Source: a virus. From it: 28,103 bases of DNA. Positions 20,957 through 27,270 of the stretch are shown in pieces (the stretch's first letter is position 1; each line of letters begins with the position of its first letter). The stretch is from positions 1 through 28,103 of the IMG/VR virus record IMGVR_UViG_3300028299_000023. The stretch is one strand, 5' to 3'. The notes below the pieces were generated by a model. That model searched no databases. It worked only from the letters and a program-made list of their open reading frames with translations, and was not told the DNA's origin. A program made the translations under genes and the position numbers.

Positions 20957-22627
20957 TTACCTCACTGGTCCAAAGAATTCACTGAACATCTCAAGCATCT
21001 TGAGAACAACGTCGTCTTTGATTGTAACCTTGATCTGCTCTGCCATCGCATACGTCTCTGCATTGGCCGTCATATATCTGGCCACCATATCGGCAAAATG
21101 TTCTTTCGGGTTCCGCGCTGCATACATCCGGAGATACACGCCAAAAGGCTTCGAAGGGCGCCAATTCTTAGGCTCAAACATATTGCCCTCTCCAATCCTC
21201 TTCCACGCTAAATTCGCGAACTTCTCAAAGAAAGCCGGATTGCTATAATGCAAGGAATGTCCGACTTCATGTGCTAAAGAATATCTGAACTGTTCATCGG
21301 GTATCGCTTCACTGGGAAACGTAATCGTTCTTGACTCTAACGTGTAACCGGCAATCCCTGCCTTCGTGCCAAGATCTCCAATTTCAATAGCTGCCAACTT
21401 CATATTGTCCATCATCAACTTGAACGGCATAGCATCCATCGTATCGGCTATCGCATTTAACTCGTTCATAGTAAAGCTGGCGTCTACTTCCACACCGTAA
21501 ATGTCGCGAACATAGTCAATCGCGTCGAAGTTATTTGCAAATGCACCTATGCGCTCGGCATTGATATACGGTTCAACATCAGCGGTCTGTTCCGTCTGCT
21601 GGATGAAACGCCGAATTCCACGATCGTCCATAGGCGTAAGTTTCTGTTGGCCTGTCTCATACGACAAATAGCACCCGCAGTTGATAACGTTATGAGAGCT
21701 GGCGTTCGGGTCGTGAGGCCGGGCCATCGGCTCACCGTCAACACTGAACATTTCCGCAAACTTCAAAGTCTGACCGGAAACCGAAGCGTGAGTCTTGCGC
21801 TTGTTGGAACGCTCCATCTGCCACCAGGTCTTGACCATTTCTACTTCATACTTGTCTCGATACTCGCGTGCGAATTCATACTCACCGAAGTTCGCGGCAC
21901 TCGCTATCTCGGTTGTCGCAATTACATTTGCATTTGATTTTGAACCAAGGACATCTCGAACACGTTGGACCATCGAAGCCTTATCGCCACCAAGCTGATA
22001 GCCTGTGGAGAGCGTTTCCTGCAGCCGCTTCTTGAGATTCTCCGTGATGTTCGTCGACGTGATCTTAAAGTCTTTACCGAACAGATAGTCTTGAGCTTTG
22101 CGATTGAAGTCTTGAAAGCGAAGATCAAAATTGACACCCATATTGAGCTTAAACGGCTGACGGCCTTTTTCTGTCTCGGGAATCACAACCTTATCAGGGA
22201 TGCCTGCCTGATTCTTTGTGGCATAATCAAATACCGCTTTGTTGGTCGTCATTTCTTTGCTCTTGGTCCTAAACGTCTGATACAGCTTGTTCGTCTCGGA
22301 GTTCATCGTGTTATACATCTCGGAGACACCGGCCTGCAGCACATCCTTCTTTCCTTGTGAAACAACCATTCCTAACGCCATTAAAAAAGGCAAGCTCTTC
22401 GTGACCTTCGCACCAAATTTTTCTGCTACTTCGTGGTCAATATCCGGGCTTGCCTTCATTGGAAATTCACTGATCTGCGCAACCTGTGTGCTTAACGCAT
22501 GGTACACCTCATCGGGATCTTCGACTTCGTCAATATCTGTAATGTCATCGCTCAGTTTGCCATACAGTTCGTTTAACGTGCCTTCAAGTTCGTCGATGTC
22601 ACCGCTATAATCATAAGAGTTGTGCAT
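20957..22627 (-). CDS. MuF-type head protein fused to zinc-metallopeptidase-like domain (556 aa)
   Basis: Residues about 190-330 are the phage Mu gpF / SPP1 gp7 minor head domain: a helical run (RLQETLSTGYQLGGDKASMV), the ATTEIASAANFGEYEFAR segment, then MERSNKRKTHASVSGQTLKF, and the Cys pair at C317-C319 (INCGC). The C-terminal 200 residues contain a metallopeptidase signature, HEVGH at 453-457, with E509 (NPKEHFADMVARYM) placed as a third zinc ligand, as in the anthrax-lethal-factor-like and other gluzincin families. MuF proteins fused to toxin domains are known in temperate phages. I infer the domain acts either on host proteins after injection or in head maturation. The start at ATG 22627 overlaps the preceding gene by 17 bp without a good Shine-Dalgarno, so coupling is likely. 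Confidence 0.8.
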   Translation of the reverse strand: MHNSYDYSGDIDELEGTLNELYGKLSDDITDIDEVEDPDEVYHALSTQVAQISEFPMKASPDIDHEVAEKFGAKVTKSLPFLMALGMVVSQGKKDVLQAGVSEMYNTMNSETNKLYQTFRTKSKEMTTNKAVFDYATKNQAGIPDKVVIPETEKGRQPFKLNMGVNFDLRFQDFNRKAQDYLFGKDFKITSTNITENLKKRLQETLSTGYQLGGDKASMVQRVRDVLGSKSNANVIATTEIASAANFGEYEFAREYRDKYEVEMVKTWWQMERSNKRKTHASVSGQTLKFAEMFSVDGEPMARPHDPNASSHNVINCGCYLSYETGQQKLTPMDDRGIRRFIQQTEQTADVEPYINAERIGAFANNFDAIDYVRDIYGVEVDASFTMNELNAIADTMDAMPFKLMMDNMKLAAIEIGDLGTKAGIAGYTLESRTITFPSEAIPDEQFRYSLAHEVGHSLHYSNPAFFEKFANLAWKRIGEGNMFEPKNWRPSKPFGVYLRMYAARNPKEHFADMVARYMTANAETYAMAEQIKVTIKDDVVLKMLEMFSEFFGPVR

Positions 22628-23120
22628 CAGCGTGAACAGCTCTCATGTGCGCGTTTAGTTTCCGCTGACTGGTAAACTCTTCATCAGGACACTTATCACA
22701 CTTGAACAGTGTAACGCCAGCAGCCGGAACAAATGCTGACAACGCTCCAGCGAGTTCAATTTCTGCAAGACGCGCATCTGTCTGGGCGTCAGCGATTCCT
22801 TCCGGAGCCACAACAGCCAGTTCAACTTTCTCGGCGACAAGCTCCGGAACGGTGGCCGTAAGACCACCATCAATTCGAGGGTTGTCATCAACTCCTGCAG
22901 GTGCTCCTTCACTGTCGATCGATACATTTGGCTCCATGCGAACACTGACCGCTACTAGAAATGCTTTCGCCTTCTCCAGTTCAAGACATACCCAACCATC
23001 ATTTTCATTGTGACGCTGTATTGCAAGATCTGCGCCTACCCAAACAGATCCGCCCTCTCGAACCATCTGTCCATAATACTGCGTGTTAAAAGGCCGCAAC
23101 CACTTTAATTCAAAGTTCAT
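22611..23120 (-). CDS. Head-region protein with C-terminal C2H2 zinc finger (169 aa)
   Basis: The ATG at 23120 has GGGAGAAGG upstream. Residues 1-60 are a beta-rich domain (NFELKWLRPFNTQYYGQMVR, then SVWVGADLA). Residues 60-130 are acidic and probably flexible. The C-terminal segment (139-169) is a textbook C2H2 zinc finger: C141-x2-C144-x13-H158-x4-H163 with aromatic/Leu positions F139, F149 and L155 present. The gene lies between capsid and MuF genes, where a head decoration, connector or DNA-binding virion protein would be expected. I do not recognise the family; the finger suggests binding of DNA, RNA or protein. Confidence 0.75.
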   Translation of the reverse strand: MNFELKWLRPFNTQYYGQMVREGGSVWVGADLAIQRHNENDGWVCLELEKAKAFLVAVSVRMEPNVSIDSEGAPAGVDDNPRIDGGLTATVPELVAEKVELAVVAPEGIADAQTDARLAEIELAGALSAFVPAAGVTLFKCDKCPDEEFTSQRKLNAHMRAVHADAQLL

Positions 23121-23192: not shown

Positions 23193-25232
23193 TTAGGCTG
23201 TTACCGTTACCAACGACATCTTGTCATTGATCGGCGTGCTCAACGCGTCTTCTTGGTAGATGTAGTACTCATCACCACCAACAAGCTGTGCATCGGAGTT
23301 ACGCACAGGATATGGACCTTTGAGAACCAACGGTTCCCAGATACGGAAGATGGTTGCATCCTTCTGTGAAAGCAGGATGTACGCATCATCCCATACATCT
23401 GAACCAAAGTGAGACAGACCGGCAGTGATGCCGTAGTTGCCTTCACCCAGCACTTGTCCGGCAGAGTACCCGGCACGAGCTCTTGCGGGTTCGTACGCTT
23501 CTGCTTGGGTCAAGTAGTTCGATGTCACTTCTGATGCCAAGATGAAGTCTGGTTTGTAACCGCGTGACTGACGATGGGAAGCGGCCTGATTCTGAACTTT
23601 GAACAACAGTTCATTCATATACTTCGACCACTCTTTCGTGCCAACACCACCGAGAGAAAAACGTATTTCGTTCGTGGCTTTCTTTCCGGTCACCAGGACA
23701 ACACCACTGTGCGCAACCGGTGAAGCTGCACCCGTTGCATCAACGAACTGGATCTTTCCGTTCAGACCGTCAACAACGTAGAACTTATCGCCAACAGGGA
23801 TGCTACTCACCTCGTACTCGTGAACAGCCACCGTGTCAATGGCGACAGACAATGTTTCACCAACAGAGATGGATGCACCAGAGACAACCGTGAACTCGGA
23901 TTTCGCAACGTCCACGGTCTCCGTGAACGAGAACGCTACCGATCCATAGGCGAGTGCAGAATTTCGCATATTGGCAAACACCATTTGCTGGAGCGACCGT
24001 TTCAGGTCGGCAATCAGATTGGCGATACCCTGGCTAATGCCTGTGATGTTCGCGTACCGTTTAGAGAGTGTAGCAAACTCATCGGAGAACTGTGCTTGGA
24101 GCTTGCTTGCCGTTGCATCGATGGGGAACCACTCTGTGGTCAATTTGCCTTTTGCCATCACACCAAATTCGGCAACCTTCAAATCGTTCTGGCGCCTTGT
24201 GGACGGCTTGTACGTTTTGCGTGTTCCGGCGATTCCACCTTCTCGGCGATACCGGGTGATGGGAATCTGATCGCGTTTCGCGTCCATCGGACCGAACAGG
24301 GTCAACCGCTCGATCATTTGATCGGCATACACCTCTGCGAGCACGATGCGAGAAATTGTGTACGGAATCTGAAAATCGGCTGGTGTTTGTGTCGCATCTT
24401 GCAATGCCACAATCATGTCAGCTTCTTTTTTCAGGTATGCGCCGTATGTTTTGTCAAACACACGTAACAGTTGCTGATTGATCGCGCTACGGTCTTTTCC
24501 AAGCACCACAGCTTCTTTCTTTGTGTTTATGAAACCAGTACCGACAATCTGATCGGCAATGATTTCAACACCCTTCAGGTGTTCACCCACGACAGTGATG
24601 TCCATGACGGAGGTTCCTTTCGCTTTGAGACCTTCCTGTGCTTGTTTTTCTTGGGCTACCCCAAGGTTATATAGTTTTACTGCATCTTGAATCGCAGCAT
24701 CCACCGCAGCGTTGTCAGCAAATGCACGACCCTTGAGAGAGTCTGTCATCACTGTCTTTGCATCTGCCGGCTGCTCCAATCTTGTAATCGAGTCAACAAG
24801 GTAGGTGCCGATTGCAGCGGTCTTTGCGACAAGATCAGCCTCTCTCTTGCTATTCTCGACAAACTCTGTGAGACGCCGTGCGGAGTCTGTGAGGACTGCC
24901 AGAGCCGCTTCACTTGCCTTCGTGTCAACAACCACTACGGCAGGTGCTTCTACCACCGGCACTACAACCTCCGGAACGACGGGAGCCGGCGTGATACTGT
25001 CGACAAGTGTTTTCAACTCGCCTGATAATTTCACAAGGTTCGCGTTTTTCTTTTCCGGATCGATGCTCGTGTCGGCGACAAGCGTTTCAACACCAGTCTT
25101 CAACGCACCGAACGAGTCAGTGATTGCCTGTGGCATTGTTGCAGTGGCCGCAGTCATCTGCTTTTGAATCGTGTCGACCAGAGCGGTAACGGATGCAACG
25201 AGCAGTTTATTTTGCTCAATCAATTTTTCCAT
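23193..25232 (-). CDS. Nested scaffold-capsid product from internal start (679 aa)
   Basis: Inside the 889-aa frame, ATG at 25232 (residue 211) has AGGAGG at 25246-25241, eight bases upstream, as strong as the first start. Translation from here yields scaffold and capsid without the protease, much like lambda C/Nu3 and other nested protease/scaffold genes. The bases before the site are A+T-rich as in an intergenic gap. A third, weaker site (AAAGGA nine bases before ATG 24605, residue 420) could make capsid with little scaffold. Proteomics would be needed to show which products exist. Confidence 0.65.
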   Translation of the reverse strand: MEKLIEQNKLLVASVTALVDTIQKQMTAATATMPQAITDSFGALKTGVETLVADTSIDPEKKNANLVKLSGELKTLVDSITPAPVVPEVVVPVVEAPAVVVVDTKASEAALAVLTDSARRLTEFVENSKREADLVAKTAAIGTYLVDSITRLEQPADAKTVMTDSLKGRAFADNAAVDAAIQDAVKLYNLGVAQEKQAQEGLKAKGTSVMDITVVGEHLKGVEIIADQIVGTGFINTKKEAVVLGKDRSAINQQLLRVFDKTYGAYLKKEADMIVALQDATQTPADFQIPYTISRIVLAEVYADQMIERLTLFGPMDAKRDQIPITRYRREGGIAGTRKTYKPSTRRQNDLKVAEFGVMAKGKLTTEWFPIDATASKLQAQFSDEFATLSKRYANITGISQGIANLIADLKRSLQQMVFANMRNSALAYGSVAFSFTETVDVAKSEFTVVSGASISVGETLSVAIDTVAVHEYEVSSIPVGDKFYVVDGLNGKIQFVDATGAASPVAHSGVVLVTGKKATNEIRFSLGGVGTKEWSKYMNELLFKVQNQAASHRQSRGYKPDFILASEVTSNYLTQAEAYEPARARAGYSAGQVLGEGNYGITAGLSHFGSDVWDDAYILLSQKDATIFRIWEPLVLKGPYPVRNSDAQLVGGDEYYIYQEDALSTPINDKMSLVTVTA

Positions 25233-25862
25233 ACTACTATCCTCCTGTAAAGTGTCTTCGATACGTTTGTATTTTAATATAGTACTAAGCTCGACCGTAT
25301 CGACTAGTCGGAGTCTAGTCCGCTCTCCCGCGGCTGCTGTCTCCAGATAACAAAAATCATAACCGAGGATCTTGACAATCTTGTCCACGACGATGTAGTA
25401 GTTGCCCCCTTCGTCTTCACGCACACTCTGAACACCAAGGGCACGTTGTGAAACTCCCAGTTCAACGCTCTCGTCAAAGAGCGTTTGAACCTTTCTTCCT
25501 TTTTCGGTGTCGATGAGCCTGATGTTGACAACCGTTTCACCCTTGTCGTTGAGATTCAATATCTCCGGAATACCTGCGAGATCATCTTCTTTACCGCGAG
25601 GGTCGGCGGCTGGATCCGGATGACCGAGATATGATGTCAGTTGCCACTTACCGGCCTGCCAATCTGTTACTGCGTCATTCTGGACGATGAAGGGAATGAT
25701 TCTATTGTTCCCGTTCAGAACGTTGGCAATAGAACCAACCGTCTGAAACCGGTATTTCTTGTCCGCCAATTTCTCAACGTTAATTTTTACGACGTCACTG
25801 ATAAACTCAACGGTCTTGCCGTCAAGTGCTCTCAGATGATCGGGCATCTTGTTGTGCGACAT
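23193..25862 (-). CDS. Prohead protease-scaffold-major capsid fusion protein (889 aa)
   Basis: This is one uninterrupted frame from ATG 25862 (AGGAGG nine bases upstream). Residues 1-200 resemble T4 gp21-type prohead serine protease (family S77): NGNNRIIPFIV near 50, a GHP with H81, and ELGVSQRALG with S138 as likely catalytic pair. Residues 211-420 are helical and Ala/Val/Pro-rich, scaffold-like (long helix 211-290; PAPVVPEVVVPVVEAP 292-307). Residues 430-889 are an HK97-fold major capsid protein (AINQQLLRVFDKTYGAYLKK, then PITRYRREGGIAGTRKTYKP, then MVFANMRNSALAYGS). Most phages keep these as separate genes. The L205-Q206-E207 triple at the join matches the L/I-x-E cleavage rule of the T4 protease, so self-processing is plausible. 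Confidence 0.9.
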   Translation of the reverse strand: MSHNKMPDHLRALDGKTVEFISDVVKINVEKLADKKYRFQTVGSIANVLNGNNRIIPFIVQNDAVTDWQAGKWQLTSYLGHPDPAADPRGKEDDLAGIPEILNLNDKGETVVNIRLIDTEKGRKVQTLFDESVELGVSQRALGVQSVREDEGGNYYIVVDKIVKILGYDFCYLETAAAGERTRLRLVDTVELSTILKYKRIEDTLQEDSSMEKLIEQNKLLVASVTALVDTIQKQMTAATATMPQAITDSFGALKTGVETLVADTSIDPEKKNANLVKLSGELKTLVDSITPAPVVPEVVVPVVEAPAVVVVDTKASEAALAVLTDSARRLTEFVENSKREADLVAKTAAIGTYLVDSITRLEQPADAKTVMTDSLKGRAFADNAAVDAAIQDAVKLYNLGVAQEKQAQEGLKAKGTSVMDITVVGEHLKGVEIIADQIVGTGFINTKKEAVVLGKDRSAINQQLLRVFDKTYGAYLKKEADMIVALQDATQTPADFQIPYTISRIVLAEVYADQMIERLTLFGPMDAKRDQIPITRYRREGGIAGTRKTYKPSTRRQNDLKVAEFGVMAKGKLTTEWFPIDATASKLQAQFSDEFATLSKRYANITGISQGIANLIADLKRSLQQMVFANMRNSALAYGSVAFSFTETVDVAKSEFTVVSGASISVGETLSVAIDTVAVHEYEVSSIPVGDKFYVVDGLNGKIQFVDATGAASPVAHSGVVLVTGKKATNEIRFSLGGVGTKEWSKYMNELLFKVQNQAASHRQSRGYKPDFILASEVTSNYLTQAEAYEPARARAGYSAGQVLGEGNYGITAGLSHFGSDVWDDAYILLSQKDATIFRIWEPLVLKGPYPVRNSDAQLVGGDEYYIYQEDALSTPINDKMSLVTVTA
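25241..25246 (-). promoter_or_regulatory. Strong internal ribosome-binding site (AGGAGG)
   Basis: AGGAGG is read on the minus strand eight bases before ATG 25232 inside the protease-capsid frame. The main start at 25862 has the same AGGAGG at 25877-25872, nine bases upstream. The upstream mRNA also contains TCGATAC and GTATCGA (25303-25297 and 25264-25258), which could pair and loop out the A+T-rich stretch between. Confidence 0.75.
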
Positions 25863-26022
25863 GGCTTTTAACCTCCTGTACTATTCTGTGATTGTGAGGC
25901 TGCGTCGGCGTAAACACGATTGCTTTTATCGGACCGGATTGCGGAGTAACGACAACCTCTCCTACCCGTCCGTGTGTCCCACCATTTTCAGGTGATTTCC
26001 AACCGCTATTCTCGTTGCCCAT
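25822..26022 (-). CDS. Possible small protein upstream of capsid fusion (66 aa)
   Basis: An ATG at 26022 opens a 66-codon frame overlapping the first 41 bases of the capsid fusion gene in another frame. The product begins MGNENSGWKSPENGGTHGRV and has a beta-like middle (GEVVVTPQSGPIKAIVFTPT). No Shine-Dalgarno is seen. It might be a real small virion gene or only a leader reading frame; the overlap with a strong start makes coupling possible. Moderate doubt. Confidence 0.35.
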   Translation of the reverse strand: MGNENSGWKSPENGGTHGRVGEVVVTPQSGPIKAIVFTPTQPHNHRIVQEVKSHVAQQDARSSEST

Positions 26023-26802: not shown

Positions 26803-27270
26803 TTATTTTGTCAGTAAAATCTTTATCGTCCGGCCGAAGGGTTTTGCCCCATTCTGCCTGTCCGCCGTTTGTGTGGCGGACGGCGTTGCATTAAAGCGGA
26901 CAAAGTATATTCCGCTTGCCAGACCTGAACCATTGAACGTAGCATTGTAGTACCCGGCTTCTTTTACTTCATCAACTAACACGGCTACTTCTCGACCAAC
27001 CATGTCATATACCTTCAGGCTTACTATTCCAGCGGATGGAAGTTGATAACTAATGGTTGTGTTCGGATTAAACAGATTAGGATAGTTTTGATATAAATTG
27101 ATATTATTTGGAGAGTTACTATTATAGTCTTTTACATCGGTTAATTTCTTACAAGAATAAATGTAGATTTTACCGAAGGGATTATTATAATCGGGATATC
27201 CAGGTGCCAAGATAAACAATTCATCATATATCGATACAAGACGATTACAAATCGATTTCCAATATCAATC
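26803..27270 (-). pseudogene. 3' remnant of secreted FG-GAP-type protein with T9SS sorting domain
   Basis: The last about 90 residues are a type IX secretion C-terminal sorting domain: NLYQNYPNLFNPNTTISYQL, then AGIVSLKVYDMVGREVAVLV, then GLASGIYFVRFNA and a final KILLTK. Before it, ELFILAPGYPDYNNPFGKIY resembles the end of an FG-GAP repeat. The frame has no ATG and meets a TGA about 15 codons above the first usable TTG (27219). A shifted frame near 27250 reads DIGNRFVI, FG-GAP-like, so a frameshift plus 5' loss is likely. It is a leftover of a host surface protein, and the main clue to the host group. Confidence 0.75.

Follow-up and report, generated by a model that had tools for sequence, protein, structure and literature searches.

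The window, that is, the whole stretch of DNA analysed here, is a single virus record of 28 kb (28,103 nucleotides). On its minus strand lies an open reading frame of 889 codons (25862..23193), the frame named in the initial annotation, which gave no strand. It runs from an ATG to its end without an internal stop and is assigned from sequence comparison to a fusion of protease, scaffold and major capsid protein (889 aa; 23193..25862). The ATG at 25862 is preceded by the Shine-Dalgarno sequence (SD) AGGAGG (25872..25877, minus strand; duplex -11.0 kcal/mol). Neighboring genes in the window encode head (MuF-like), contractile-tail and baseplate proteins, and no terminase or portal was recognized within the 28 kb. 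The MuF-like head protein (20957-22627, minus) ends in an HExxH metallopeptidase-like stretch (Peptidase_Mx1, below the cut-off), and a 169-aa protein adjoining the capsid gene (22611-23120, minus) has a C2H2 zinc-finger-like motif at its C-terminus. The segment 26267-26130 (minus), upstream of the capsid gene, holds a promoter-like TTGACA-17-TATATT (11/12) and, about 45 nt past it, a very strong terminator-like hairpin (-34.2 kcal/mol, z -5.5, with a T-run); this looks like either a late promoter with a leader terminator or a prophage boundary. Further along, the end of a frame at 26803-27219 (minus) resembles a type IX secretion sorting domain (YQNYPNLFNPNTTISYQLP...), which suggests that the right end of the window is Bacteroidota/Ignavibacteria-like host DNA.

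The N-terminal part of the fusion is a T4 gp21-like protease domain of the peptidase S77 type (residues 30-171; 25350..25775, minus). Residues 30-170 match the head maturation protease PHROG 207 (E 1e-9), and the domain aligns with the protease of the family of relatives described below (hhalign, E 4e-11). The window sequence alone scores below Pfam S77, a model that family members do reach: Peptidase_S77 is matched by 39 of the 40 aligned members, and the family profile matches the T4 gp21 structure 5JBL (E 5e-14). The catalytic residues proposed initially, H81 (25620-25622) and S138 (25449-25451), and a third candidate, D169 (25356-25358), all on the minus strand, sit on conserved family columns. 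In the HMM alignment the family serine falls one column before T4 Ser140 (GVASRG in T4, GVSxR in the family), and cyanophage gp21 (GVSSRG) has a serine at both columns. Because of this offset, S138 is regarded as the likely rather than the proven nucleophile.

The protease is followed by a scaffold-like helical region (residues 211-415; 24618..25232, minus) and then by the major capsid protein region (residues about 420-889; 23196..24605, minus). Modeling of the window protein with AF2 gave helices at 210-290 and 314-409 with pLDDT up to 92, and long predicted helices of this kind (residues 210-409) are as expected of a scaffold; the model of the entire protein has a pLDDT of 54 and is a usable outline for the protease and scaffold only. 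AF2 gave no usable structure for the capsid part (pLDDT 33), and a capsid fold is therefore predicted by homology via relatives. By hhalign, the window capsid part is homologous to its counterparts in the family at large (E 4e-22), Gp23 is matched by 7 of the 40 aligned members (Pfam), and in three members (L010, L012 and L033) both S77 and Gp23 exceed the Pfam gathering score in one ORF each. The window alone reached no Pfam capsid model, and hhalign with gp23 was negative when run directly on the window capsid region or on that of the Firmicutes relatives; for the remaining family members it gave a weak profile match (E 9e-4). Placement of the window capsid region in the Gp23/HK97-fold family is thus indirect and passes through these relatives. 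Together, the PHROG 207 match, the predicted helices and the capsid-family homology bear out the three-part composition proposed in the initial annotation.

Used alone as a query, P0001 recovered no relatives in IMG/VR or in genome contigs. In tblastn searches of phage genomes, the window protease weakly matched gp21 of T4-like cyanophages and the capsid end matched Virus Rctr41k. A profile search yielded 71 loci, with 64 distinct ORFs that contain protease and capsid domains and are free of internal stops. As a guard against bias towards fusions, a second IMG/VR scan was seeded on capsid-only motifs; it returned at least 262 relatives, the best 80 of which were kept, and when these were checked for separate versus fused genes the fusion was present in 74 of the 74 loci with enough upstream DNA, the other six being cut by the contig end. 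One apparent split gene, L011, was rejected as broken by frameshifts. The fusion also occurs in the cultured Brevibacillus phage Emery (gp6, 1006 aa, annotated 'hypothetical protein'), on plasmid sequences of Aneurinibacillus and Brevibacillus isolates (phage-plasmids), and in Anaerolineales genomes as fused frames of 879-981 aa. The Aneurinibacillus-type members L088:5030-7954, L091 and L092 carry about 180 additional aa between protease and scaffold. Since the same frame recurs in many contigs, a cultured phage, plasmids and Anaerolineales, the fusion is neither an artefact nor rare; across a large clade the nested triple fusion, initially called unusual, is the norm.

Within the frame, a second AGGAGG (25241..25246, minus; duplex -10.3 kcal/mol) lies inside codons Q206-E207-D208, exactly 8 nt ahead of the ATG of M211 (25230..25232, minus), as described in the initial annotation, and this SD is kept in relatives. 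A start with an SD is found about 20-40 residues past the protease end, with an in-frame ATG, in 47 of 47 cluster representatives, and in 37 of them the junction SD and ATG stand out from other windows of the same ORF at p<=0.01. Across the representatives the SD falls in all three codon registers (35/11/1), and its spacing is mostly 5 or 8 nt. An SD with ATG or GTG is likewise present at the junction in all 74 capsid-seeded loci (from the best 80 of at least 262), and the start codon is ATG in 78 and GTG in 8 of 86 members; other internal ATGs show no excess of SD. ORFs of the Emery-like (Firmicutes) clade generally have their two strongest start signals at the beginning of the gene and at the junction, and ATG alternates with GTG at the latter: Emery gp6 has an ATG after CCAAGGAGG (SKEDDK/TKEDDK-M), and the three Aneurinibacillus-type members have a GTG with AAAGGGGG.

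Codon choice at the junction points in the same direction. In 81 members that share less than 70% identity in the junction region, SD strength exceeds by 3.22±0.17 kcal/mol what a random draw of their gene's synonymous codons would give, a large departure from the synonymous null, and identically processed control windows give an excess of 0.35±0.04 kcal/mol (n=1491). Picking the best start in a range introduces selection bias into such an aggregate test, for which the matched windows control. Because the window alone gives p 0.30, which is not significant, the codon signal is one of the family. The predicted mRNA opening cost is 8.7 kcal/mol at the junction and 8.0 at the gene start, compared with 13.9±3.9 at 788 other internal ATGs. 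These counts come from related members and are not independent, a dependence that the within-gene controls reduce and do not remove. In view of the conservation, the codon excess and the open mRNA, a used start is strongly indicated, and the best explanation, backed by strong evidence from sequence comparison, is that the junction start functions and would yield a scaffold-capsid protein free of protease, as proposed initially. Near residue 420, where a third N-terminus had been suggested, the SD reaches only -5.6 kcal/mol in structured mRNA, and no second nested start was found there.

The initial annotation had also proposed that the full-length protein is made in few copies and the nested product in many. 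The start signals do not predict this. In the window the SD duplex of the gene start is slightly stronger than that of M211 (-11.0 vs -10.3 kcal/mol), and over 44 relatives the two starts are on average equally strong (mean -9.67 vs -9.55 kcal/mol). Full-length chains would nevertheless be expected to make up a small fraction, because T4 is reported to contain about 55-100 gp21 and about 960 gp23 (PMC9958956, PMC5694885).

Self-cleavage at L205-Q206-E207 (25242..25250, minus), a candidate gp21-type site, is plausible. T4-type proteases cut after x-x-E, and the gp21 homologue of a giant phage cleaves itself at AQE-203 (PMC5694885). The motif [LIVMF]xE[SN] stands just before the nested start in 58 of 86 members, against a background of 12%, which agrees with the cleavage proposed at the outset; less favorable are the Firmicutes clade, which mostly has no L-x-E motif, and the site in the window, which overlaps the SD. 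There, the motif could be no more than a by-product of the SD, because the two share bases (CAG GAG GAT).

With S77 and Gp23 in single ORFs, a family match to 5JBL, and the separate genes 21, 22 and 23 arranged in that order in the T4-like phage JS98, the most fitting description of the gene is a single 21-22-23 frame. It is highly probable, as judged from sequence, that this block has a second ribosome entry at the gp21/gp22 junction and gives rise to protease-bearing and protease-free products. The T4-type head genes for gp21 (protease), gp22 (scaffold) and gp23 (capsid) would have merged with their order unchanged. Initiation at 25862 would produce the 889-aa protease-scaffold-capsid protein, and initiation at 25232 a scaffold-capsid protein of 679 aa. 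From this arrangement we infer that two proteins are made and co-assemble. Because scaffold and shell domains are common to both, the protease would be built covalently into the procapsid, at a dose that depends on how often each start is used relative to the other. Following assembly, it would release itself near the junction and trim the scaffold off the shell protein.

The same signals could in principle have been left behind by history. The junction coincides with the gp21/gp22 gene boundary of T4-like phages, and an in-frame fusion through loss of a stop would keep the SD in place, so that the internal SD and ATG might be remnants of once-separate genes, with only the full-length protein made and smaller forms arising by proteolysis. 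However, a relic should decay, and the SD persists among members about 20% identical in spite of a changed peptide and codon register; the codon bias exceeds the synonymous null and the surrounding mRNA is unstructured, which makes this reading improbable. Intragenic SD-like sequences have also been proposed to slow ribosomes, and such a stretch at a domain boundary might give the protease time to fold before the scaffold is made, without any initiation. A pause needs no start codon, yet SD and start stay paired across the family (86 members, 78 with ATG and 8 with GTG), and other internal ATGs are not accompanied by the SD excess, so a pause without initiation is very improbable.

The probability is lower still, practically nil, that the fusion was created by an assembly or sequencing error. 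The window does come from the contig of an uncultivated virus, and the relative L011 is truly frameshift-broken, but the same unbroken frame is found in more than 60 other contigs, the complete genome of a cultured phage and isolate plasmids, and these relatives already refute an artefact.

How phages load a small and correct number of proteases into each procapsid is an old question. If the proposed mechanism is true, two start codons in one gene would set the protease dose, and delivery would be covalent. Dozens of related phages share this layout, which suggests a genuine and common means of dosing the capsid protease. We also consider, tentatively and with a little less than even confidence, that several phage lineages independently fused protease, scaffold and shell, that every such fusion retained or acquired a nested start, and that procapsids are always mosaics of shell subunits with and without protease; independent fusions would make covalent dosing a general principle and not the oddity of one clade. 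The family occurs commonly among uncultivated phages and includes a cultured one, Emery, in which the proposed mechanism can be tested now. For annotators, a frame of 750-1100 aa labeled 'head maturation protease' in such phages is the major capsid protein as well.

Protease-capsid fusions of other kinds are already catalogued, another respect in which the arrangement is less unusual than first thought: the NCBIfam models scaf_prot_MCP1/MCP2 (NF045540, NF045541) and PHROG 4523 ('major head and protease protein') describe protease and capsid in one chain, as in the window. The window record does not match at the NF045540/NF045541 cut-offs and lies outside these NCBIfam types. Eight Anaerolineae loci related to these models (L177-L184) have a capsid of the Phage_capsid_4/Mu gpT type, unlike that of the window; by inspection, most appear to have a strong SD and ATG near the protease end. 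Virus Rctr41k APU89242 (871 aa, 'putative phage capsid protein and protease') has the same fusion and an internal AAGGAG-8-ATG; its record names both functions and lists no nested product. In Microcystis phage yong1 (L082:2408-4954), protease, scaffold and capsid likewise share one frame (848 aa, 'Mu-like prophage I protein'). Its capsid part is related to the window family, but its protease belongs to a different type (PHROG 328), and the internal ATG, preceded by GGAG after LTES, has a weak SD (-6.4 kcal/mol). No account of a nested start inside a fused S77 protease, scaffold and capsid gene came up in the literature covered, which takes in few subscription papers.

The likeness to the T4 21-22-23 block lies in the protease family (Pfam S77, PDB 5JBL), the gene order and, in some family members, Gp23 matches, whereas T4-like phages make three separate proteins and the window family has one frame with a nested start. 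In lambda C/Nu3, Mu I/Z and herpesvirus UL26/UL26.5, an in-frame nested start yields a protease-free scaffold, and the nested product ends before the capsid protein, which is encoded separately. The window resembles lambda C/Nu3 in its in-frame internal SD and start at the protease/scaffold junction, with a predicted product, and differs in that the capsid protein belongs to the same frame. In HK97, the protease gp4 is the product of a separate gene, whereas that of the window is fused. The HK97-type capsid protein carries its scaffold as a domain (PMC10275583), and the predicted nested product of the window has the same layout as HK97 gp5, a scaffold domain followed by the capsid protein.
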